58,725 nt of DNA from a virus: IMG/VR virus record IMGVR_UViG_3300048672_000976, positions 1 to 58,725 of that record; one strand, 5' to 3'. Position numbers and translations under genes: made by a program. The notes beneath the pieces are model-generated. The model searched no databases and had not been told where the DNA came from. It saw only the letters and a list, made by a program, of their open reading frames with translations. This document shows, piece after piece, positions 3,731 through 50,320 of this stretch (its first letter is position 1; every line of letters starts with the position of its first letter).

Positions 3731-4672
3731 TTAATCTAATTGTTTTGGTTTAATGTTTGTAAAATCACCTTTTAAATCTGCAATATCCTTTTCGCCTGTT
3801 AATTGTACTGACCATATGCGACCCATTAATTTACCACAATTTAAACGATGGTATAATTTTTCTTGATCGGATTGTGCATCAGGATCCAAAATTATTATGA
3901 TTTTTGCTTTGGCATTATCATATAATTTCATGAATAAATGGTCCGGAATAAATTTACCTAACATTGGTATTGAATTGGGAACAAAAATACTATCAAAGAC
4001 ACCTTCAACTAAATAAATGTCTTTATCCCACTCAATTAATTTTTCATTCCAAATTATTATTTCCTTTTGGGCTTCAGGATTTTGATATTTATATTTTGTT
4101 TTTTTTAAATAAGATCTTGCAATAAAATAATTCAAATGATTATTTGAATCGTATGATGGTATAATAATTCTATGTTCATAATGTCCTTGATAACAAAATC
4201 CAATATTGAATTTCTTTATCATTTCATCACTAATATTTCTTTCTTTAATATAATTAAATGCTTGTTTATAGTATGGTGTCATTTTTAAACCGGCACTTGC
4301 ATCTAAAAAATTTATAAATTCTTTGGGGAGTTTTATAGTATGATAAACCTTTTTGGGTAAATCATCATTTTCATCAGGTCTTAATATTAAATAATTTTTT
4401 AATTGTTTTTTATTACCATATTTTTTTATTAAACCATAAATTCTACCCGAAGTACCATGGCTTTCTTTACATGACCAACATTTATAAACATTCAATTTAT
4501 AATTTATTTCTAAATTACCTTTTCCATCTCCACAATCTAACTCTTTTATGTCATATGAGCATACAGGACAATCAAATGATATTTGGCCATTATATTCATT
4601 ATGTGATCTAATGTCGCCAAATATGTCTTCAAGAATGTCAATTACTGGTGAATAATCAACTATTGTATCCAT
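3731..4672 (-). CDS. 61: DNA primase (zinc-binding plus TOPRIM), gp61-like
   Basis: A 313-residue primase making RNA primers for lagging-strand synthesis, expected to work with the DnaB/gp41 helicase encoded at 44659-46941. The N-terminus has a CHC2-like zinc ribbon with C35, C38, C65 and C68 (CPVC ... CWSC). The TOPRIM region has IYLVEGVFDSIF (E223) and IIIILDPDA (D263, D265). The middle (GHYEHRIIIPSYD, FIARSYL) matches the RNA-polymerase-like core of DnaG-type primases. There is no fused helicase domain. A 210-base gene-free leader precedes it, holding a hairpin and AT-rich palindromes, so it probably begins a transcription unit with the nuclease, gp47 and gp46. Confidence 0.92.
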   Translation of the reverse strand: MDTIVDYSPVIDILEDIFGDIRSHNEYNGQISFDCPVCSYDIKELDCGDGKGNLEINYKLNVYKCWSCKESHGTSGRIYGLIKKYGNKKQLKNYLILRPDENDDLPKKVYHTIKLPKEFINFLDASAGLKMTPYYKQAFNYIKERNISDEMIKKFNIGFCYQGHYEHRIIIPSYDSNNHLNYFIARSYLKKTKYKYQNPEAQKEIIIWNEKLIEWDKDIYLVEGVFDSIFVPNSIPMLGKFIPDHLFMKLYDNAKAKIIIILDPDAQSDQEKLYHRLNCGKLMGRIWSVQLTGEKDIADLKGDFTNIKPKQLD

Positions 4673-4743
4673 TTAAAAATTTGGTTTGGTGAATATTGAA
4701 TATAATAATCAAAAAAAACGATAAAAACAAAAAATTTAAGCAT

Positions 4744-4783
4744 AAAAAAAGAGAGAACCGCACCACCAGTCCTCCCTTTTTTT
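4744..4783 (-). terminator. Terminator-like hairpin between RuvC-like gene and primase
   Basis: On the minus strand an A-run followed by GGGAG (arm 4772-4783) can pair with CTCTC followed by a T-run (arm 4744-4755), with a loop of about 16 nt. Because both flanks are A/T runs, it could act in both directions. It is the most GC-containing patch of the 4673-4883 gap. Two AT palindromes, at about 4792-4805 and 4818-4835, lie beside it. A promoter for primase may lie at 4673-4740, but no clear consensus was seen. Confidence 0.5.
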
Positions 4784-4883
4784 TTACTCCCCCAATTATA
4801 TAATTGTATTTTTTTAACCATTTATTTAATAAATGATTATATCATAAATATAATTAAAAAAAATTAAATTACAAAATATTTGT

Positions 4884-5486
4884 TTATTTTTTTTCTTTAA
4901 GCATATTAACATAACCAATTACACAGGTAACTGAGTCTGACATATCATAACATTCTTTCTTTAATTTACCTTTTTTATCATAAAACCATTGAACTTCTGG
5001 AAATAATAAATTTACATGTTCCCAAACTATATGTTTTTTATCAATATCTTTATCATAACCACCAAATAAAACATATTTACCTTTACTATTTAGCCCAACT
5101 AAATCAGGAAATGCATATTTTCTTGAATTGTATGTGGAGATAAATGTCGGTAAAACATTTAAAACTTCATAACATGCATTTAAAATTAAAGTATTATATC
5201 TTAATAATGTACCAATTGTGTAAATATTATTTGACTGTAATAATGGCTCTTCAATTATTACACGAGTTATACCCACATCTTTATATTTTTCTAATTGTTT
5301 TTTAAAAGTGTTTGCTTTTTTTATCATTTCTTCAATTTTATCATCCGGCTGTGGTTTAACTTTGGGTGAAAAATGTGTTAATTCTAATAATTTTGACTCA
5401 TTAATATCAAATAATGCAAAACCAATTGTTTTTGTACTTATATCTAAACCAAGAATTTTGGGTGTGTTTTTTAATTTCTTATCCAT
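4884..5486 (-). CDS. ruvC: RuvC-like Holliday junction resolvase
   Basis: A 200-residue RNase H-fold nuclease. It starts with the signature ILGLDISTKTIGFALFD (D15), then VIIEEPLL (E79/E80), and ends with CYDMSDSVTCVIGY (D181, D184), the acidic residues expected to bind two metals. These match the RuvC-like resolvase group seen in phages and large DNA viruses. The expected role is cutting branched recombination and replication intermediates before packaging, the job done in T4 by the unrelated endonuclease VII. It lies between the structural gene at 5524 and the primase leader. The T4-like set therefore appears to use a RuvC-type enzyme here. Confidence 0.85.
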   Translation of the reverse strand: MDKKLKNTPKILGLDISTKTIGFALFDINESKLLELTHFSPKVKPQPDDKIEEMIKKANTFKKQLEKYKDVGITRVIIEEPLLQSNNIYTIGTLLRYNTLILNACYEVLNVLPTFISTYNSRKYAFPDLVGLNSKGKYVLFGGYDKDIDKKHIVWEHVNLLFPEVQWFYDKKGKLKKECYDMSDSVTCVIGYVNMLKEKK

Positions 5487-39966: not shown

Positions 39967-42717
39967 TTATTCACAATTTATACATTCTAAAATATTTCTT
40001 ACAAACGATTGGGCCGAACTTTTACTAAATTGATAGTATAATGTTTTAACACCTTCTTCGTGTGCATATAAATATAATTTATTTATATCTTTCGTTGGTA
40101 TTGATGGGTCAATCATAAGATTTAAACTTTGTGATTGATCAATAAATTTTTGTCTTTGTGCCGCCTGTAAAACAACCTCTTTTGGCGATATTTCAACAAA
40201 CGTTTTAAATACTTCTTTTGTTGGAAAATCCAAATGTTGTACCGAGCCATCTTTAGCCAATATACTTGACCATGTTTTATCATTATTTAAGTTATATTTA
40301 ATTAGTTCATCAATTAAATATGGGTTTTTATAAACAGTTTTAATTTTAGCTAAATCTTTTACAAAATAATTTGATTTAATTGGCTCAATCCCCATACTTA
40401 CTTGCCCTAAAATAAATGAACTAGATTTAGTTGGTGCGATAGCTACTAATGTTGTGTTAGCATAACCATCACGAATAGTTTTATATTTTTCAGGGTCTTT
40501 ATTATAAAGATCTTTTGATGTTGCATCTGTTCTTTCTTTTAGGGTTCTGAAAATTTTACTATTATATTGTTTAGCCTCAATGGATTCAAACGGTATTAAT
40601 TTTGATTGTAATAATGAATGATAACCTAAAACACCAACGCCAATTGCTCTATGATGTGTGGCAAATCTCCATGCTCTCTTCATACCTGCCATATTAGATG
40701 ATTTTGTTATAAATTCATCTAAAACAGCATTTAAAAATAACGTATAAATTTCAATTGCATCTGTTTTTTCAATTTCATCCCAATGTAATAGATTAATTGA
40801 ACCTATACAACAAACAAATGAATTATAACTATCTGTTGGCAATTGAATTTCTGAACAATTGAATGTTTTTAACCCATTAGAAACGAAAATATGTTCATCG
40901 TTGTTTATTGTTGGACAATAAATATCTTCATTTTCTACTTGTTCAATTGACACAACTTTCGTTTTCTTTTTTGTACTATCCAAATATTTTCTATTATCAA
41001 TTTTAATATTTTTTCTTGATAAGAAACCGGTTTTTTCTTCAATTATTAATCCATCATTTTTACTACCAAATATGAGTCTCCAACATTCTTTGGTTTTATA
41101 CATTTTTTTACCACCTTTACCATCAGGTAATAATGTCTCGCCTTCTTTTCTTAAACGATGAATACTACAACTTAAACCTAAATTAGTAAATAAAATTTGT
41201 AATTCATTTAAAAAATTTTTGTTTATATCAATATATGAGATTTCGAATGATTCACCATATTTTGATGATTTATTAACAGAACCATCAGCATATAATAAAC
41301 CCTTTAAATATTGCCATATTGTATTTTCATTAGATTCCCATATCCAAGATGGAACATACCCTTTTTCAAAATTTAATGATTTTTTTAAGGTTTTTGATGC
41401 TAATCGTTTTTTTAATACTAATGATTGATTAACCTTACAATTAAAAAATTTTGCTGGTTTTCTTTTTCTTACTTTATTCGTTAATCCAGTTTGATTAGTA
41501 ACAAAATATTCATCACATTTATATTTATAATGTATATTATTAAATTTATTCTGAATATCATCGATTAAATCAAAATCATTCTCCCAAATATCTAACATTA
41601 TTATGTCCTTATTTTGAGTACCATCTGATTGATATAAACCTAACAAATAAGCCTCATCTGGCATATCTATTTGCCCAAAAATACCTTTATTAGTTTGAAA
41701 TGGTATTGCATCGCCAATATTTAAATCTTTTGCTTCAATTCTTCTAATTTTATTATTTTTATCAATTACAGGTATTCCATGGTTAAATGAAACTTTTTGT
41801 TCCATTCCGTTTGAATATTTTATTTTTAAAATTTCAGCATTTTTACCTCTTAATAACATTGGTGATGATTTTACAGTCTCCGTACCGTTAAATAACGTTA
41901 ATTCATCACCATTTTCATACAATTCTTTAGCTGTTAAATAACCTTTATTTGTTACAACTCGTTGATCACCTGTTAAACAAAGATTACTTGCTGTTATTTC
42001 TAAACCTAATTCTTTATAAGGTGTGTTATTATTTGTATTATCCTTAAACATAATATAAGGAAAACCAAATTCACTACGTTTTTGAATTACTTTGGCCCAA
42101 ATTTTACGTTTTACCATATCGCCACCTTTCATTTCTTCAAGCCACTTATCAGTAACTGTAACACCAAATTGTAAATTTTGGATTGGGTTACCCTCAGAAC
42201 CAATATCTAAGAATTCATTAATATCATCATGTTCAATTGGTAAATAAACAGCACAAGCACCTCTTCTAGCTTCTGATTGTTTACAAACATCAATTGTTGT
42301 ATCATATAATTTTGCATAATGAACAGGACCATCAGCTTTGCCTCCTGTCGAAATACGAGTACCTCTAGGTCTAATATTACCTAAATATGCTGATGTTCCA
42401 CCCCCATATTTTGACATCATACCAATTTCTCTACTAGCATTTAATATGCTATCCATAGAATCGTCAATATTGGAACCATAGCAACTGATTGGTAATCCTT
42501 TCTCTTTTCCAAAATTAATCCAAACAGGTGTTGATAAACTATAATAGCCTTTTGCCATATAATCTTCGAACTTATCAGCAAAACCATCTATTTTGAGAAT
42601 TTGTTCTGCTTTATTTGCAATGTTTTTTATTCTTTGTTCTACCGATTCGTCAATATAACCTCTCGATAAAAATAAACGAGCATCTTCATTTGCCCAATAA
42701 TATTTTGTATAATTCAT
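39967..42717 (-). CDS. nrdA: Ribonucleotide reductase large subunit NrdA, with intein
   Basis: 916 residues including an intein at 247-620; after splicing the enzyme would be 542 residues. Catalytic features are present: Cys79 in PISCYG, the thiyl-radical Cys621 in the reassembled motif SNL/CSEIQLP with Glu623, partner Cys in SFVCCIG, LYYQF tyrosines near the end, and terminal CxxC (C912, C915). An N-terminal ATP-cone is missing and the core is much shorter than T4 NrdA (754), so overall activity control may reside elsewhere or be lost. The intein interrupts directly before the catalytic Cys. NrdB lies upstream, thioredoxin directly downstream. It makes deoxynucleotides for phage DNA synthesis. 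Confidence 0.95.
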   Translation of the reverse strand: MNYTKYYWANEDARLFLSRGYIDESVEQRIKNIANKAEQILKIDGFADKFEDYMAKGYYSLSTPVWINFGKEKGLPISCYGSNIDDSMDSILNASREIGMMSKYGGGTSAYLGNIRPRGTRISTGGKADGPVHYAKLYDTTIDVCKQSEARRGACAVYLPIEHDDINEFLDIGSEGNPIQNLQFGVTVTDKWLEEMKGGDMVKRKIWAKVIQKRSEFGFPYIMFKDNTNNNTPYKELGLEITASNLCLTGDQRVVTNKGYLTAKELYENGDELTLFNGTETVKSSPMLLRGKNAEILKIKYSNGMEQKVSFNHGIPVIDKNNKIRRIEAKDLNIGDAIPFQTNKGIFGQIDMPDEAYLLGLYQSDGTQNKDIIMLDIWENDFDLIDDIQNKFNNIHYKYKCDEYFVTNQTGLTNKVRKRKPAKFFNCKVNQSLVLKKRLASKTLKKSLNFEKGYVPSWIWESNENTIWQYLKGLLYADGSVNKSSKYGESFEISYIDINKNFLNELQILFTNLGLSCSIHRLRKEGETLLPDGKGGKKMYKTKECWRLIFGSKNDGLIIEEKTGFLSRKNIKIDNRKYLDSTKKKTKVVSIEQVENEDIYCPTINNDEHIFVSNGLKTFNCSEIQLPTDSYNSFVCCIGSINLLHWDEIEKTDAIEIYTLFLNAVLDEFITKSSNMAGMKRAWRFATHHRAIGVGVLGYHSLLQSKLIPFESIEAKQYNSKIFRTLKERTDATSKDLYNKDPEKYKTIRDGYANTTLVAIAPTKSSSFILGQVSMGIEPIKSNYFVKDLAKIKTVYKNPYLIDELIKYNLNNDKTWSSILAKDGSVQHLDFPTKEVFKTFVEISPKEVVLQAAQRQKFIDQSQSLNLMIDPSIPTKDINKLYLYAHEEGVKTLYYQFSKSSAQSFVRNILECINCE
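40858..41979 (-). other. NrdA intein (374 residues) with intact LAGLIDADG endonuclease
   Basis: Residues 247-620 of NrdA. Splicing blocks: A begins CLTGDQRVVT (Cys1), B has KVSFNHGIPV, F has EDIYCPTINNDEHIFVSNG, and G is LKTFN followed by C+1. The penultimate residue is Phe, not the usual His. The two LAGLIDADG motifs, YLLGLYQSDGT (about 357-367) and LKGLLYADGSV (about 471-481), both retain the Asp-Gly pair, so the homing nuclease could be active. C+1 is the catalytic cysteine of NrdA, so activity strictly needs splicing. Confidence 0.9.
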
Positions 42718-42767: not shown

Positions 42768-44651
42768 TTAATCAAACAAATCATCTTCAGTTATTGATTT
42801 CGTTTTCTTTGAATAATCTATACTTTTCTTTTGGAAGAAGTCACCTTCTTTTGTTGATGAAATTTCAACATTGAACCATAATGTTTTTTCAAGATTATTT
42901 ATATTAACGTCAAAAATTGGTTTCATTCCAATCTTATTTAATGAATTATTAAATCTATCCATAATAAAATGACGAATAGTTTCTTTCGATAAAAAATCTA
43001 ATTCCCCATTTTCAAATATCCAATCAATAATTTTACATTCAGCTTTATATGCTTTTTTACATGCCGAATAAATTAATGAATTAAATTCCTCATCAAACCA
43101 TTCTGGGTTTTCTTCTTTTATAATATTAATTATTTCAGCACCGAAATTTCCATGGATATCTTCTTCTTTTGAAGTTGCTTCAACAACATTTGAAATACCT
43201 TTGAAAATATTTTTTTCTTTGTTAAAACTCATCATGATTAGAAATTGAGAAAATAAAGAAACATGTTCAATAAATAACGAGAACAATAATATGGATTTAG
43301 TGTACATTTTATTATCATCACTTCTAGTACCATCCAAATATTTTGTTAAATATTTAATTCTATCTTTAATTGCTGGTATTTCAATGACCGTTTTAAATTC
43401 ATCCTCTAATCCCAAGATTCTTAATAATCTAGCATATGCATCTTTATGACGAACTTCTGAATTACACGAAATTAATGAGTTATTATTAAATTTCGTAATT
43501 ATTCTTCCACTATCAACACTAATACAATATATATTACCGTCATAATTAAGTTCTTCTTTTTTAAATCCAATATTAGATGTTTCTTGGTTTTTAATGAATT
43601 GGATAGTATATAAAAATTTATATTTATTCACAATACATTTATATCCTGCACCAACACCAACCATTTGTACTTTATCAAAACATGATTTAACAGGTGTTGC
43701 ATATGTTGAATCAACATTATCTGCTCTATTATACCATATTAATAATTCATTTACAAATTCATTACACCATTCCCATGTTTTATCATTTAAATTAACCCAA
43801 TCAAACGTTTCAAAACCATACGTTTGGTCCATATCGATTTTAAATGTTATTACTTCATCATTTTTTGAATCTATAATTTCATTATATTTAAAATTTAAAT
43901 TTGATAAGATTTCTCGTAATCTATCTTTTTTATAATCATTTTTAATTTTTATTTCATAGACATTTGAATTATTTTTTAAATTGGCGTTATAATATAAATG
44001 TAACACAATTCTTAGTTTTTCTTCCCATGATAATTTATTAATTGTTCCACCAATTAATTTAGCAGCTTCAGGTAATAAGTTATCATCATTAATTTCCAAT
44101 TCTTCTGCCGTTTTAATAATTGGTTCATTTTTTCTATTAAAAACAATAAATCTATGATTTGGTGTTACGATTGCTTCTAAATTTTCTTTTGTAAATTTAA
44201 TAACTTTACCTTTATATGGTTCATTAGTTACTTTATTTACTTTGGTTATACTTAATGTCTTATCGTCATTATATTGTATAACATTATCACCAACATTAAT
44301 ATTTTTAAAGTTTACCCAACCATTTGGTGTTAATACCTCAGTACCTTCTACATGACATTCGGCAAATGTCATTCCAACGTCACCAATTTCTGTTATTGGC
44401 ATACGTTTATACATGTCGGCCCAAAATGTTTTAACATTTACTTCGATTTGTGCAATAGCTAACATAGTTCGTTTTATTGCTTCTCTCTCAGTATCATTAA
44501 TATTCACCATAAAATCATTAATATCCGTTGTGAAGTTATATTCAGTATCTATCCAATATGAATGCCTAATTGCATCTTTATACTGTAATAATGACGGATA
44601 ATCATAAGGTAAAATATTAACTCTTTTATTAAAAATACTTCTTTTTTTCAT
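42768..44651 (-). CDS. nrdB: Ribonucleotide reductase small subunit NrdB, with intein
   Basis: 627 residues including an intein at 99-397; the spliced protein has 328 residues, a normal class I beta size. Iron-site residues are visible: E70 in AIAQIEVNVKTFW, E399 and H402 plus radical Tyr406 in SEVRHKDAYA, E462 in FIEHVSLF, and E497 and H500 in EEDIHGNFG. The reaction generates the tyrosyl radical used by NrdA. The C-terminus, ending in SITEDDLFD, is the usual flexible tail that binds NrdA. The intein sits next to the iron-ligand Glu of the SEVRH motif. It starts 7 bases after the helicase stop and is followed by NrdA, 50 bases away. Confidence 0.94.
   Translation of the reverse strand: MKKRSIFNKRVNILPYDYPSLLQYKDAIRHSYWIDTEYNFTTDINDFMVNINDTEREAIKRTMLAIAQIEVNVKTFWADMYKRMPITEIGDVGMTFAECHVEGTEVLTPNGWVNFKNINVGDNVIQYNDDKTLSITKVNKVTNEPYKGKVIKFTKENLEAIVTPNHRFIVFNRKNEPIIKTAEELEINDDNLLPEAAKLIGGTINKLSWEEKLRIVLHLYYNANLKNNSNVYEIKIKNDYKKDRLREILSNLNFKYNEIIDSKNDEVITFKIDMDQTYGFETFDWVNLNDKTWEWCNEFVNELLIWYNRADNVDSTYATPVKSCFDKVQMVGVGAGYKCIVNKYKFLYTIQFIKNQETSNIGFKKEELNYDGNIYCISVDSGRIITKFNNNSLISCNSEVRHKDAYARLLRILGLEDEFKTVIEIPAIKDRIKYLTKYLDGTRSDDNKMYTKSILLFSLFIEHVSLFSQFLIMMSFNKEKNIFKGISNVVEATSKEEDIHGNFGAEIINIIKEENPEWFDEEFNSLIYSACKKAYKAECKIIDWIFENGELDFLSKETIRHFIMDRFNNSLNKIGMKPIFDVNINNLEKTLWFNVEISSTKEGDFFQKKSIDYSKKTKSITEDDLFD
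43461..44357 (-). other. NrdB intein (299 residues) with degenerate endonuclease domain
   Basis: Residues 99-397 of NrdB. Block A is CHVEGTEVLTPNGW (Cys1), block B is LEAIVTPNHRFIV, block F is YCISVDSGRIITK, and block G is SLISCN followed by Ser+1. The penultimate residue is Cys in place of His. The endonuclease region resembles a LAGLIDADG-type domain, with EKLRIVLHLYYNAN where an Asp-Gly is expected and NELLIWYNRADN where W-D-G would be expected, so both catalytic acids seem lost. It ends CFDKVQMVGVGAGYKC, a signature of the same family. Confidence 0.85.
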
Positions 44652-44658
44652 AATTGTT

Positions 44659-46941
44659 TTAATTTTGTTGTTGTCGTCTTAAAAATGCTTCCCTTGCTCT
44701 TGCGGCCCTATCTTCGGTTTTTTGTTCCTCATGGCCTAATAATGTATTTTGTGATTCTGTATCAATTATTAACATTTTATTATCAAATTTACAATTTTGA
44801 AAGATAATACCATCTTTACCTATTCTAGATTTTAATAATGTTATTGTTCCCAAATCATGCTCTTTCTGTTCTAATGTTTTACCAATAGAAATAATTACAT
44901 GAGCAATTTGTGCTTTTTTAATACTACCACCCATTTGATCACTTGTTACTACTTCAGATGAAATTGAATCTCGACTACCCTGTGTTGCTGTCCAAATAGC
45001 AATATTAAATTCATTTGTCATTGATTCTAAACTTCGCATTATACTTGCTTCACCTTTCCATTCTTCACCACCGGTACTTTTCACCGAAGTTATACAATCA
45101 ACGTAATCTATAATTAATAAATCCAATTTAAAACCATCAGAATTCATTTTTCTAATTTTACTTTTTATATCAGCAACAGTAATACCATCACTTGGTAGTT
45201 TTAATAAATGTAATTTACCTCTCGATCTTGTTTGTGCATCTAAAACTTTCTCTTTTACTTCAACAGCATAATCTGGTTGTTCATCTGGTTCAACACCAGT
45301 CCAAATGGTATAATGTTTACGTTTGATGTTCCCCGGATTATCTTCAAAAAATATTTGTAAAACATTAAAATCATGATTATATGCCGTATTTCCTATTTTT
45401 GTTAATATCGTTGTATTATGTGTTAGCACATAATCATTAGTAACAAATAATTCATCACTATTTGATACTTTAATACAAACAGCCTCCTCATCATGAGAAT
45501 AAGTAATTGATTTAACAAATTTTTGATAATTATATTTATTATGTTTTTCGTAACGTAATAAATGATGTTTTAATTTAAACGGTACAATATTATTTGAAAA
45601 CGATATTGTTAAAATATAAGACAATTGACCTATTTTAAATATATCTTTATATTTAATTTTTGGTGTTTTTGTTTTAACACTAACAGTACCACCTAGTGAT
45701 AGCACTAATTCTCTAACATTATTTGATAATTTATAAGAAACTGTTGTATATTTAATTGTGCCATTTTTTGATATATAACCATCAGTATCCATTAAACCTT
45801 GTAATAAATTAATCCTAATATTTTTAGTATTATATAGATACTCATTTGGAATGAATTTATTATTTGATTTATTGTCTCTAAAATATTCATCATCCTTAGT
45901 GGTTACATTTATTGATGAATCATCACCCAATAAACAACCTAATAAATATGGATCAATACTTACTTTTTGTTCATTAAAATCAATTGGTTCAATATTAGGT
46001 AATCTATAATTATATCTACCCCTCTTTTTAATACTATTCATCATATCAGATGTCTTCATCGTAATGAAACCATTGTTTGATGAGTAAGTATTGATTTTTT
46101 TATTATTGGTTCTCATGTTAAGTGTATTTACACTCCAAAGATGTTCTTCGTCACAATTTACACTTGTACCGTCGGTAAATTCCATTTTATATATTGGTCT
46201 TATACCTTGTGGATATACACCAATAATTTGTTGAGGTTTACCATCTGAACCCATAACAAAATCACCAACTTTTACATCACCCATAATTCCCCAACCATTA
46301 GGTGTTAGAATTTTTTCAGTAATAGGTAATGCTTTTCCAACACCAGTTGGGGCCAATATAACACCTAATTCACCACGCCCAAGACCGCCTTTTAATAATT
46401 GGTCAATACCAACTATTCCAGTTGGTATTGGTAATCGGTAATCATTTTCTAGTACACTATCAATATCATCAAAAACATCAGTTGTATCATCATTTGAACC
46501 TACTTGTAATGCATTTTGAATAATTTGTTCAATATGATGATATTCTTCAAAATTACCATTTTCTATGATATTATTTACAAGTTTTAGTTCCTTTTTTAAA
46601 TTTTGTTGTTTACAAAAATTAAGGGCCCTATCCATAACAAATGATGTGTCTTTTTCATCATTTTTTATTTGTTCTAAAGTATCTACATGGATTCTTGATG
46701 TGTCTTTATTTCCACTTTCAGATATTATTTTTTGTATTATGGTATCGTAATTAGGTATTTTGTCATATGCTTTATGTAATTCTTTAATATTTTCGATAAT
46801 ATATCTAAACGAATTATTATCAAAAAATTTAGTTTCTATTACATCAATAATTGTTTCACCATATTTTTTATTTTCAATTATGGCTTTAATTAAAGATTGT
46901 TGAAATGAGAAGCCTAAATAACCAAAATTTTTCTCTTCCAT
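44659..46941 (-). CDS. 41: Replicative DNA helicase DnaB/gp41-like, with intein
   Basis: 760 residues including an intein at 204-509; the spliced helicase has 454 residues. The N-terminal domain (1-160) is helical and ends in VFDDIDSVLEN. The RecA-like domain shows IPTGIVGIDQLLKGGLGRGELGVI and a P-loop APTGVGK (197-203) that is completed by T510 and T511 after splicing. LDLLIIDYVDCI is Walker B, and IWTATQGSRDS and SDQMGGSIKKAQ are later RecA-fold motifs. It unwinds DNA 5'-3' ahead of the polymerase and should couple to the primase at 3731-4672. The start shares one base with the stop of the upstream unknown gene (TAATG). Confidence 0.94.
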   Translation of the reverse strand: MEEKNFGYLGFSFQQSLIKAIIENKKYGETIIDVIETKFFDNNSFRYIIENIKELHKAYDKIPNYDTIIQKIISESGNKDTSRIHVDTLEQIKNDEKDTSFVMDRALNFCKQQNLKKELKLVNNIIENGNFEEYHHIEQIIQNALQVGSNDDTTDVFDDIDSVLENDYRLPIPTGIVGIDQLLKGGLGRGELGVILAPTGVGKALPITEKILTPNGWGIMGDVKVGDFVMGSDGKPQQIIGVYPQGIRPIYKMEFTDGTSVNCDEEHLWSVNTLNMRTNNKKINTYSSNNGFITMKTSDMMNSIKKRGRYNYRLPNIEPIDFNEQKVSIDPYLLGCLLGDDSSINVTTKDDEYFRDNKSNNKFIPNEYLYNTKNIRINLLQGLMDTDGYISKNGTIKYTTVSYKLSNNVRELVLSLGGTVSVKTKTPKIKYKDIFKIGQLSYILTISFSNNIVPFKLKHHLLRYEKHNKYNYQKFVKSITYSHDEEAVCIKVSNSDELFVTNDYVLTHNTTILTKIGNTAYNHDFNVLQIFFEDNPGNIKRKHYTIWTGVEPDEQPDYAVEVKEKVLDAQTRSRGKLHLLKLPSDGITVADIKSKIRKMNSDGFKLDLLIIDYVDCITSVKSTGGEEWKGEASIMRSLESMTNEFNIAIWTATQGSRDSISSEVVTSDQMGGSIKKAQIAHVIISIGKTLEQKEHDLGTITLLKSRIGKDGIIFQNCKFDNKMLIIDTESQNTLLGHEEQKTEDRAARAREAFLRRQQQN
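45415..46332 (-). other. DnaB intein (306 residues), class 3-like, in the P-loop
   Basis: Residues 204-509. It starts with Ala, not Cys or Ser, and reads ALPITEKILTPNGW. The Trp of block B (CDEEHLW, intein residue 66), the Cys of block F (AVCIKVSN, 286) and the Thr of block G (VLTHN, 304) form the W-C-T set known from class 3 inteins, which use the block F Cys as first nucleophile. LAGLIDADG motifs are LLGCLLGDDSS and LLQGLMDTDGYI, both with acidic residues retained. It is followed by Thr+1. Confidence 0.9.
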
Positions 46942-47393
46942 TAATTTGCTAATTGATAGTTCAAATATGTTGTTTTCAATTTTTTAGATGACATAACATC
47001 GGTTAGTTCAGTTAAGAACATTTTTAATTTTGGTCTAATATCAACAGTTCTAACCTTTGGATGATAATATTGTGATGGTATTAACCGTTCAATAAATATT
47101 TCATTACCGTATTTTATTTGTAATGAAAAATGTTCATCTGATCTATCTGTTGTATCTTCAACATATTCAGGTGACATATAATATTTACTATTTTCACATA
47201 AATAATCTGTTGTTTTAATTTTTAAATCGTTTGATATTTCCTCGGATATATATTTAACAGTTTCGTAGAGTTCTAAAGAATTTCTTGATTTTGGGTTAAA
47301 ATTATACACACTAAAAAATCGTTGGCAAATGATATTTTTACCAAATGTTAGTAAAAATTCATATTTATCTGTATTTTGATCATTATTGTTCAT
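46941..47393 (-). CDS. Unknown protein between RNase H and helicase
   Basis: 150 residues, acidic overall, with two similar-sized halves. The first has EFLLTFGKNIICQRFFSVYNFNP (about 12-34), the second has FSLQIKYGNEIFIERLIPSQYYHP (about 89-112). The resemblance between F-G/Y-G-N-x-I-x-x-x-R-F/L suggests an internal duplication. It overlaps the RNase H gene by 11 nt and the helicase by 1 nt. T4 has its helicase loader gp59 in a nearby functional context, but I see no sequence basis for that call. Function unknown; probably a replisome accessory given the tight coupling. Confidence 0.65.
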   Translation of the reverse strand: MNNNDQNTDKYEFLLTFGKNIICQRFFSVYNFNPKSRNSLELYETVKYISEEISNDLKIKTTDYLCENSKYYMSPEYVEDTTDRSDEHFSLQIKYGNEIFIERLIPSQYYHPKVRTVDIRPKLKMFLTELTDVMSSKKLKTTYLNYQLAN

Positions 47394-48417
47394 GGTTTCG
47401 TATTTTTATCATTTTGTTAAAGTTGTAATTGTTATTTTTCTCTTTTCTTGTTAATCGAAGAAAAGGATTTAAAAAAGTAATCCATGCATTATCTGATTTT
47501 GGTAAGACGTTAAATAATCCATCATTTATCATCATTTTCAAAGTGTTTTTATATGAACGACCTTCGGGGTCCAAATTATCAGTAATTAATAGATGAATTA
47601 TATTTTTAGCCTCGTCAGTTAAAAATGGGTCTGTTAGATTTACTATTTTATCATTTATTTCTAAAAATTCATCACCAAAAACGCCATATTTAGTTACACC
47701 TGTTAAGATATTTGCTAATGTTTTATTTTTTTTATCTTCATCAAATAAATTGTTGCTTTTTTCAATAATTTCATTAATTGTGAGTTCTTTTTCCTTTATT
47801 TCAGGAAAAAAACCTAAAAATCTTTTAATACCCAAATTTCTAATACCTGTAATATTATCAGAATAATCGCCACAAAAAATTTTTATTATTTTTACATTTT
47901 CAATTAATACTTCTTGATGTTGATATTGAATTATATCGTTTCTTTTATAAAGTTTTTGATGTGATGGATTGTATATCTGTGTATTATCAGATATTAATTG
48001 AGTTAAGTCCCCATCAGATGAATAAATAATTTTATTTTCTTTTGAATTTTGTGTATAATAAGCAATACAATCATCACTTTCACATAATTCAAATTCACCT
48101 TGTCTAACATATAATTCTTCAAGATATTGTTTAATTCTATCTCTTTGGTAATTATATGAACTAATTTCCTCCTCTGTTTTAAGTTTATCTTTTCGATTAC
48201 TTTTATATTCGGGGTAAATTTTTTTTCTATGGTAAGCACCATTTTCGCCGTCCCAAAAAACAACTATTTTATTTAAATGATAAGTTTCAAATGATTTTCT
48301 AAGGGTGTTTAAGAAATGAAATATTCCTCCAATATGATTACCTTTGTAAAAATAATTTTTACACCCATAGAAACCAATTGTTAATAAATTATCACCATCA
48401 ACGAGTAATACAGACAT
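47383..48417 (-). CDS. rnh: RNase H / FEN-type 5'-3' exonuclease, T4 Rnh-like
   Basis: 344 residues of the 5' nuclease family that removes RNA primers from Okazaki fragments. Metal ligands lie in order: LLVDGDN (D7, D9), FWDGENG (D56), RKKIYPEYKSNR (arch helix with basic residues 64-75), LCESDDCIAYY (E113, D115, D116), IYSSDGDLTQL (D135, D137) and FCGDYSDNITGI (D184, D187). The last is the helix-3-turn/helix-hairpin-helix entry. The length is close to T4 RNase H (305). The C-terminal third is less conserved. It lies between UvsX and the small unknown, in the replication block. Confidence 0.93.
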   Translation of the reverse strand: MSVLLVDGDNLLTIGFYGCKNYFYKGNHIGGIFHFLNTLRKSFETYHLNKIVVFWDGENGAYHRKKIYPEYKSNRKDKLKTEEEISSYNYQRDRIKQYLEELYVRQGEFELCESDDCIAYYTQNSKENKIIYSSDGDLTQLISDNTQIYNPSHQKLYKRNDIIQYQHQEVLIENVKIIKIFCGDYSDNITGIRNLGIKRFLGFFPEIKEKELTINEIIEKSNNLFDEDKKNKTLANILTGVTKYGVFGDEFLEINDKIVNLTDPFLTDEAKNIIHLLITDNLDPEGRSYKNTLKMMINDGLFNVLPKSDNAWITFLNPFLRLTRKEKNNNYNFNKMIKIRNHEQ

Positions 48418-48439
48418 TTATTTTTAAAATTAAATTGAT

Positions 48440-50320
48440 TTAATCCTCTTCTTCCTTGATTTCTTCGAATTTAATGTCTTTTAAATCCATTACTTTTTCG
48501 CCAAATAATTTACTTATATATTCTAAATTACTTCTTACATATAGCTCTTTAGATACTTTTTCTTCAGCAGGTTCTTTTGCTTTTAAGAAACCATGAGGCG
48601 TAACCATAATCTTACCATCAGCAAATGCAATACCATTAACATGATTTTTCATTACTGATATTTTACTTCTAGTAGCAACACTAATTGTTCTTTTATTTTT
48701 CGTGATAGGTATTTTTGTTGTTCCAGCATTTTTTTGATTACCAAATAGAAATACCAATGTTGAATTTAAATAAATTGCTTCACCACCTTTTGCTTTAATT
48801 TTTGGTTGACCATAAATATTATCAGGTAACTCAACCCATGGTTGATTAACGATTATTAATGTGTTTGTATATGGTTTATCTGAACGACGTGATCCCGAAA
48901 TACGTTGATTAATACCCATACCAATTTTATCTGCCAATACTGATGCATTATGTTGTTTACCGCCTTTACCTTCATATGTCATTTTACATGGCACCGAACC
49001 CACAGAATCCCACAAAAATAAAAGATCATATGGTATTTTTCCCTTTTCCTGATCATCCATCATTTTATTCATGAAATCAGTTATTTGTTCTATATATTCA
49101 AAATCATTTCTAAATATATAAGGGCCACTATATGTAACTTCACCTGTATCTTCATCAACTACTGTTTCAACAGGTATATTCATTATTTTTGCATGTTCAA
49201 AATCAAACTTTTGCTCAGTTATAATAAACACAGGTAACATTCCTTTTTTAATTCCATCGGCGGCAGAACCTAAAAGACACGTAGTGTTATGTGTTACAAT
49301 ATAATCATCAGTAATATATAATGAATCATTATTACTAACCTTTATACATTGTGTTATTTCTTCTCCAATATATTCAATTTTTTCAATATATTTTGAAATA
49401 TCTAAATTAAAATCAATTAATTTTTCTAATTTATGATAATATGTTGGCGATGATAAAATTTCTTTAGGTAATTGTAAAGAAATTGTATAATAATTTATTT
49501 TTTTATTATAATTTACTTCAACAATACCGCCTAAACTTCTAATAATCTCTGTTATATTAGTTGTTAATTGTTTTGATTTAATATTTAATCTATTTTCATC
49601 AAAACTATCACTTTCAATTAATCCAATTAATAATAATAATCTATTTTCAATGCTTGTATAAATATACTCACTAGGTATAAACTTATTATCGTTATTAATA
49701 TCTTTATACCCTATATCATTAATTTTATTTATTATTTCATTACTAAATGAATTAACACCACCCAAATATTGTCCTAATAATAAAGGATCTACCGGTAACA
49801 CATCATTATTCTCAAAATGAATAGGTTTAACAACAGGTATTTGATAATTATTACCTTTTTTTATCTTAACATTATCCAACATTTCTTTTGTTGTTAATGT
49901 CTTATACTCGCCATTAAATAACTGTCTATCTTTATATTCATTAACAAACCATAAATGTTCTTCATCGCAAAAAGTTTCCCCACCATCACTAGTTGTTACT
50001 TTATAAACAGGCCTCATTCCTTGTGGATAAACCCCCACAACTGTTTGTGTTTTACCATTTGAACCCATAATAACATCATCTAGTTTAATATCACCCATTA
50101 ATTTCCATCCATTGGGTGTTAAAATTTTTGATGTTAATGGTTGTGCTTTACCTGTGTCCGAATGGCCCAATAACATATTAATATGTCCAATAGCCGGTCC
50201 TGGTATTCCTGTTGCATCTAAAAATGCATCACCTAAATCTAAAAATCTATCAGGTTTGTAACTTGTTTTACTCGAATATTCAGAAATTATTGATGCGAAA
50301 TCTTGTTTTTTTATTGCCAT
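48440..50320 (-). CDS. uvsX: UvsX/RecA-like recombinase, with intein
   Basis: 626 residues including an intein at 59-345; the spliced recombinase has 339 residues (T4 UvsX has 391). The P-loop LLGHSDTGK (50-58) is completed by T346 and T347. After the intein, LPVFIITEQKFDF holds the catalytic-Glu region, LLFLWDSVGSVP is Walker B, NQRISGSRRSDKPYTNTLIIVNQ corresponds to the L2 and Gln regions, and the C-terminus is acidic (EEIKEEED). It catalyses strand exchange for recombination-dependent replication and repair, together with the SSB encoded directly upstream. An 11-bp hairpin lies in the gap before its start. Confidence 0.94.
   Translation of the reverse strand: MAIKKQDFASIISEYSSKTSYKPDRFLDLGDAFLDATGIPGPAIGHINMLLGHSDTGKAQPLTSKILTPNGWKLMGDIKLDDVIMGSNGKTQTVVGVYPQGMRPVYKVTTSDGGETFCDEEHLWFVNEYKDRQLFNGEYKTLTTKEMLDNVKIKKGNNYQIPVVKPIHFENNDVLPVDPLLLGQYLGGVNSFSNEIINKINDIGYKDINNDNKFIPSEYIYTSIENRLLLLIGLIESDSFDENRLNIKSKQLTTNITEIIRSLGGIVEVNYNKKINYYTISLQLPKEILSSPTYYHKLEKLIDFNLDISKYIEKIEYIGEEITQCIKVSNNDSLYITDDYIVTHNTTCLLGSAADGIKKGMLPVFIITEQKFDFEHAKIMNIPVETVVDEDTGEVTYSGPYIFRNDFEYIEQITDFMNKMMDDQEKGKIPYDLLFLWDSVGSVPCKMTYEGKGGKQHNASVLADKIGMGINQRISGSRRSDKPYTNTLIIVNQPWVELPDNIYGQPKIKAKGGEAIYLNSTLVFLFGNQKNAGTTKIPITKNKRTISVATRSKISVMKNHVNGIAFADGKIMVTPHGFLKAKEPAEEKVSKELYVRSNLEYISKLFGEKVMDLKDIKFEEIKEEED
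49286..50146 (-). other. UvsX intein (287 residues), class 3-like, degenerate endonuclease
   Basis: Residues 59-345. It starts AQPLTSKILTPNGW with Ala1; Trp66 (CDEEHLW), Cys267 (TQCIKVSN) and Thr285 (IVTHN) form the class 3 W-C-T set, and Thr+1 follows. It is clearly related to the DnaB intein (shared ILTPNGW, VGVYPQG, CDEEHLW, IKVSN). LAGLIDADG-equivalent segments read LLLGQYLGGVNS and LLIGLIESDSFD. The first lacks the Asp that is GD in the DnaB copy, so the nuclease is probably inactive. Confidence 0.88.

Follow-up and report, generated by a model that had tools for sequence, protein, structure and literature searches.

In all likelihood, the UvsX-like recombinase and the DnaB/gp41 helicase of this phage are interrupted at their P-loops by two class 3 inteins with separate histories, and there was no recent copying between the two in this genome. 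The DnaB intein would be one allele of a gp41 P-loop intein lineage that is common to many T4-type phages, and the UvsX intein a separate, long-branched member that probably came from a gp41/DnaB-type P-loop intein, either in another phage or long ago. The window (the whole stretch of DNA analysed, 58,725 bp at 28% GC, which is the complete IMG/VR record IMGVR_UViG_3300048672_000976) belongs to a virus of bacteria and probably represents part of a larger genome.

Host genes and inserts

The T4-type replication block lies on the minus strand of the window (Table 1). The DnaB exteins match PHROG 19 and Pfam DnaB_C. The interrupted UvsX ORF returned no naming match in PHROG, Pfam, or NCBIfam, and its C-extein alone was likewise unnamed in these profile searches; we call the ORF UvsX because its uninterrupted homologue at locus L016 (82-84% identical) matches PHROG 97, UvsX-like recombinase (the match of that homologue to Pfam RecA is below cut-off). 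Another contig, L005, holds the same virus at 99.2% identity and differs by a single synonymous change over 417 nt of the UvsX intein, so the inteins are not an assembly artefact.

Table 1 Features of the minus-strand replication block and its four inteins, in reading order (window positions; a slash marks a splice junction)
Feature	Position	Strand	Remarks
gp32-like single-strand binding protein	51244-50387	-	Pfam gp32
UvsX-like recombinase ORF with intein	48440..50320	-	626 aa; spliced 339 aa
UvsX P-loop intein	50146..49286	-	287 aa; GHSDTGK/AQPLTSK...IVTHN/TTCLLG
Decayed LAGLIDADG region, UvsX intein	49607..49783	-	LLLGQYLGG ... LIGLIESD; first catalytic Asp replaced by Gly
5'-3' exonuclease	48417-47383	-	Between UvsX and the small ORF
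Small ORF		-	Between the 5'-3' exonuclease and DnaB/gp41
T4-type DnaB/gp41 replicative helicase ORF with intein	44659..46941	-	760 aa; spliced 454 aa
DnaB P-loop intein	46332..45415	-	306 aa; APTGVGK/ALPITEK...VLTHN/TTILTK
Truncated LAGLIDADG region, DnaB intein	45778..45945	-	LLGCLLGDD ... LMDTDG; both Asp kept
NrdB	44651-42768	-	After DnaB/gp41
NrdB intein	43461-44357	-	299 aa; FAE/CHVEG...ISCN/SEVRH; Cys1
NrdA	42717-39967	-	After NrdB
NrdA intein	40858-41979	-	374 aa; ASNL/CLTGD...KTFN/CSEI; LAGLIDADG_3 match

In both genes, the insert follows the P-loop Lys and precedes the first Thr (GVGK/TT in DnaB and DTGK/TT in UvsX). The DnaB intein carries A1, H64, W66, C286, and T304-H305-N306, and the UvsX intein A1, H64, W66, C267, and T285-H286-N287, each followed by a +1 Thr; HLW, which contains Trp66, and the block F sequence CIKVSN are present in both. 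The original prediction had described these features (Ala1, insertion after the P-loop Lys, Trp66, a block F Cys, and THN before Thr) together with four shared sequences, ILTPNGW, VGVYPQG, CDEEHLW, and IKVSN, and all of them were recovered in both inteins. AlphaFold models built on alignments of 40 rows had a pLDDT of 92.7 for the UvsX intein (m56ff23cd7ba1) and 90.4 for the DnaB intein (m1abf85fe4349), with low confidence in the LAGLIDADG region of the latter.

The homing endonuclease is reduced in both inteins. The acids of the two LAGLIDADG motifs are separated by a median of 94 residues in the family, compared with 46 in the DnaB intein and 49 in the UvsX intein, so that 45-48 residues are missing between the motifs in each, and neither has two intact LAGLIDADG halves with their catalytic acids. 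The inteins at L016 and L118 are likewise shortened in the endonuclease. From these sequence features, the window inteins are probably now immobile, and would persist as splicing elements in important genes. Such decay, and the precedent of a class 3 intein that has been called a pseudogene (PMC3196547), could be read as signs that both inserts are degenerate and no longer splice, in which case DnaB and UvsX would be inactive or the host would supply them. We regard this as improbable, since only the endonuclease part shows decay, every splicing residue is intact, as are the two extein frames, and the structure models are confident.

Including the inteins in NrdB and NrdA, four inteins lie within about 9.3 kb. 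The NrdB intein, which gave no Pfam LAGLIDADG match, appears class 1-like from its sequence, and the NrdA intein has Phe, not His, before its last Asn. These two are of another class than the DnaB/UvsX pair because they begin with Cys1.

Phylogenetic placement and target sites

About 190 intein relatives were gathered from viral contigs and bacterial genomes by junction patterns and an alignment (single-sequence scans with the intein alone gave few loci), and 152 non-redundant rows, the window included, were kept. The sequences shared by the two window inteins had been taken as a mark of close kinship, but they are largely family consensus: among the other 150 non-redundant inteins, GVYPQG occurs in 60, CIKVSN in 22, CDEEHLW in 21, and ILTPNGW in 16, the carriers of CIKVSN and CDEEHLW being mostly DnaB inteins. 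They therefore show no special relationship between the DnaB and UvsX inteins. In BLAST comparisons, gp41 inteins from other phages reach ~57% identity to the window DnaB intein, and its UvsX neighbour 38% (41-42% for this pair in multiple alignments).

The phylogeny called for by the original prediction separates the two inteins. We left out L266 (mis-extracted) and L003 and L004 (shifted block F). The window DnaB intein falls in a clade of 22 gp41 P-loop inteins that excludes the UvsX intein (support 100/99 for the splicing domain and 100/100 for whole inteins), and the UvsX intein, which is long-branched, is placed with other gp41-type inteins, its exact position being weakly supported. Forcing the two to be sisters costs 33.0 lnL on whole inteins (AU test: p = 0.021) and 34.4 lnL on the splicing domain alone (AU test: p = 0.084, not rejected at 5%). 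Sisterhood is disfavoured, clearly on whole inteins and at the borderline on the splicing domain, and the close sister relationship claimed at the outset does not stand.

The collection contains one other UvsX intein. A search pattern made of the UvsX junction plus Ala, which inteins starting with other residues would escape, matched L005 and L092 only, and L092 carries a full-length UvsX intein (349 aa) and no DnaB P-loop intein. In the whole-intein tree, the window and L092 UvsX inteins pair with support of 90/72, adjoining L164; the splicing-domain tree separates them, although a single UvsX clade is not rejected (p = 0.47), and there may have been two separate intein entries into UvsX. The host of the L164 intein looks like a DnaB-type ATPase. 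Downstream of DnaB in L092 is another intein-like stretch (4380-4958, minus strand; 28% identical to the DnaB intein).

The insertion in UvsX is sporadic, because all 79 readable UvsX sites among L012-L091 (retrieved with the UvsX C-extein, 66-88% identical, some of these contigs being near-copies of one another) are empty, typically reading GHSDTGK/TTAL. The reverse of the L092 pattern is seen in L016, where a DnaB intein (Ser1, decayed endonuclease) is present and the UvsX, NrdB, and NrdA sites are empty, in proteins 81-94% identical to the window exteins. Intein presence at the DnaB and UvsX sites is therefore uncoupled.

The original prediction also pointed to the nucleotide target around the junction, and here the outcome is mixed, the two sites being alike in relatives with empty sites and only weakly so in the window. 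The occupied sites of the window agree at 12/24 nt (P about 0.05 when compared with random in-frame segments). Across the 46 relatives in which neither site is occupied, agreement around the junction averages 15/24 nt and reaches 19, with exact shared runs of up to 15 nt (e.g., ACAGGAAAA/ACAAC); these are raw agreements with no formal null, and much of the likeness is the shared GK-TT coding. From these sequences, it is plausible that a full-length family endonuclease could in principle cut both sites, which would offer a route for an ancestral movement from gp41 to UvsX.

The original prediction was that one intein jumped between the paralogous P-loops of gp41 and UvsX in this genome, making the two true sisters. 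The same host motif, the same class, the shared consensus sequences, and the likeness of the empty target sites would fit such a jump, but the DnaB intein lies in a fully supported gp41 clade without the UvsX intein, the forced sisterhood is costly in both data sets, and L092 has a UvsX intein beside an empty DnaB site. We consider a jump within this genome quite improbable. That an intein once passed between the P-loops of gp41 and UvsX, at whatever time and in whichever phage, is plausible given the branching of the UvsX inteins among those of gp41 and the likeness of the DNA target sites in relatives. Inteins of the same class at matching motifs in one genome can differ in history, and, with the separate histories of the window inteins, shared motifs alone are no proof of a within-genome jump. 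Full-length L092 and gp41 inteins occur beside decayed ones and empty sites, which makes ectopic homing between gp41 and UvsX testable.

Class assignment and predicted splicing

None of the 152 non-redundant inteins has a substitution at Trp66, His64, the block F Cys, or the block G Thr; loci were partly retrieved with the THN pattern, which biases the constancy of Thr but leaves Trp, His, and Cys unaffected. Residue 1 is variable (A in 123 inteins, S in 13, E in 5, D, L, P, and M in 2 each, C in 1, and others), and even inteins that are 96% identical differ between S1 and A1 (L097 vs. L099 and L103). Because Ala, Glu, Asp, Pro, and Leu all occur there, residue 1 cannot be the required nucleophile. 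With W, H, and C fixed, such natural variation lends the class 3 mechanism useful support by comparison. The WCT set (Trp B:12, Cys F:4, Thr G:5) has been reported from class 3 inteins only (PMC7664689; PMC5222942); both window inteins contain it as W66, C267/C286, and T285/T304, and the dispensability of a residue-1 nucleophile, the other class 3 feature, is seen in them by comparison only.

Predicted structure agrees with this assignment. In Foldseek searches of the PDB, both models matched the class 3 DnaB inteins 6RIX, 6RIY, and 6BS8 (E = 1.8e-8 to 2.5e-6; TM by target 0.75-0.82), and PI-SceI was also among the matches of both. The MchDnaB1 class 3 intein has a Cys124-His65-Thr143 triad with Trp67 (PMC7664689), the same kinds of residues in the same blocks as in the window inteins. 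The class 3 identity originally proposed is supported by sequence, conservation, and predicted structure, which together point to both inserts being class 3 inteins of a large phage-borne family seated after the P-loop Lys of ATPases.

A splicing mechanism can be predicted for the window inteins from the class 3 literature (PMC5222942). The block F Cys (C286 in DnaB, C267 in UvsX), with His64 and the block G Thr assisting and Trp66 packed against it, would attack the peptide bond after the P-loop Lys, giving a block F branched intermediate. Thr+1 would then take the N-extein from this intermediate and the terminal Asn would cyclise. Joining of the exteins would restore GK-TT, and the helicase and the recombinase would regain ATP binding.

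In mycobacterial DnaB, a nucleophilic Cys of this kind has been reported to sense stress (PMC6195587), and one could imagine the inteins of NrdA and NrdB (dNTP supply), gp41 (replication), and UvsX (recombination) acting as a joint post-translational gate, in which the class 3 pair delays the helicase and the recombinase until conditions allow splicing; we judge this very unlikely. A class 2 route, with direct attack by the +1 residue and no block F nucleophile, would fit Ala1 and Thr+1, but is extremely unlikely given a full WCT set that is invariant in the relatives and known only from class 3 inteins.

Relatives in other genes

The intein family is common in phages, with 687 phage records matching the DnaB intein and 482 matching the UvsX intein by tblastn; its hosts in these records include SNF2 helicases, terminases, PhoH, and DnaB genes. 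No UvsX-borne intein was seen among the best matches (the one host examined residue by residue was PhoH), and none is reported in the open-access papers on inteins and UvsX that were consulted. UvsX is apparently an unreported host gene of a known, common class 3 P-loop intein family. This adds the recombinase on which homing depends in T4 (PMC2988022) to the genes that carry class 3 P-loop inteins.

The gp41-1 intein resembles the window DnaB intein in its phage gp41 helicase host and similar HINT fold, and has another insertion site than the window gp41 intein. It is a class 1 intein with Cys1 (PMC7664689), whereas the window inteins are class 3. The class 3 inteins of mycobacteriophage Bethlehem gp51, D. 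radiodurans Snf2, and mycobacterial DnaB-b (Brace 2010; Tori 2010; Tori and Perler 2011, as cited in PMC5222942) share with the window inteins the WCT residues, a dispensable residue-1 nucleophile, a site after the P-loop Lys, and phage hosts, but differ in host gene from T4-type gp41 and UvsX. The MchDnaB1 and MsmDnaB inteins (6RIX, 6RIY, and 6BS8) have the same splicing-domain fold and catalytic residues, but are mini-inteins without an endonuclease, whereas the window inteins keep a decayed LAGLIDADG domain.

There is published precedent both for insertion at the P-loop and for class 3 inteins moving from one ATPase gene to another (PMC5050341). Phage TerL1-a has its class 3 site after the P-loop Lys, as do the window inteins, and TerL1-c/e and mycobacterial DnaB-b are, as here, class 3 inteins that share an ancestor and occupy different ATPase genes; for them, a phage-host exchange was inferred (PMC5050341), whereas the window has the two P-loops of one phage.

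Further inteins and intein-like inserts occur in the collection. L097, L106, and L108 have a second intein-like insert that begins further on in the same gp41 genes, at TATQGNR/C or TAVQGNR/C. At L171, a class 3-type intein with Cys1 lies in a helicase-like gene whose protein appears to hold a further intein. L161, L203, L211, and L214 are family members placed outside the usual P-loop Lys, for instance after DHK in an exonuclease-like gene.
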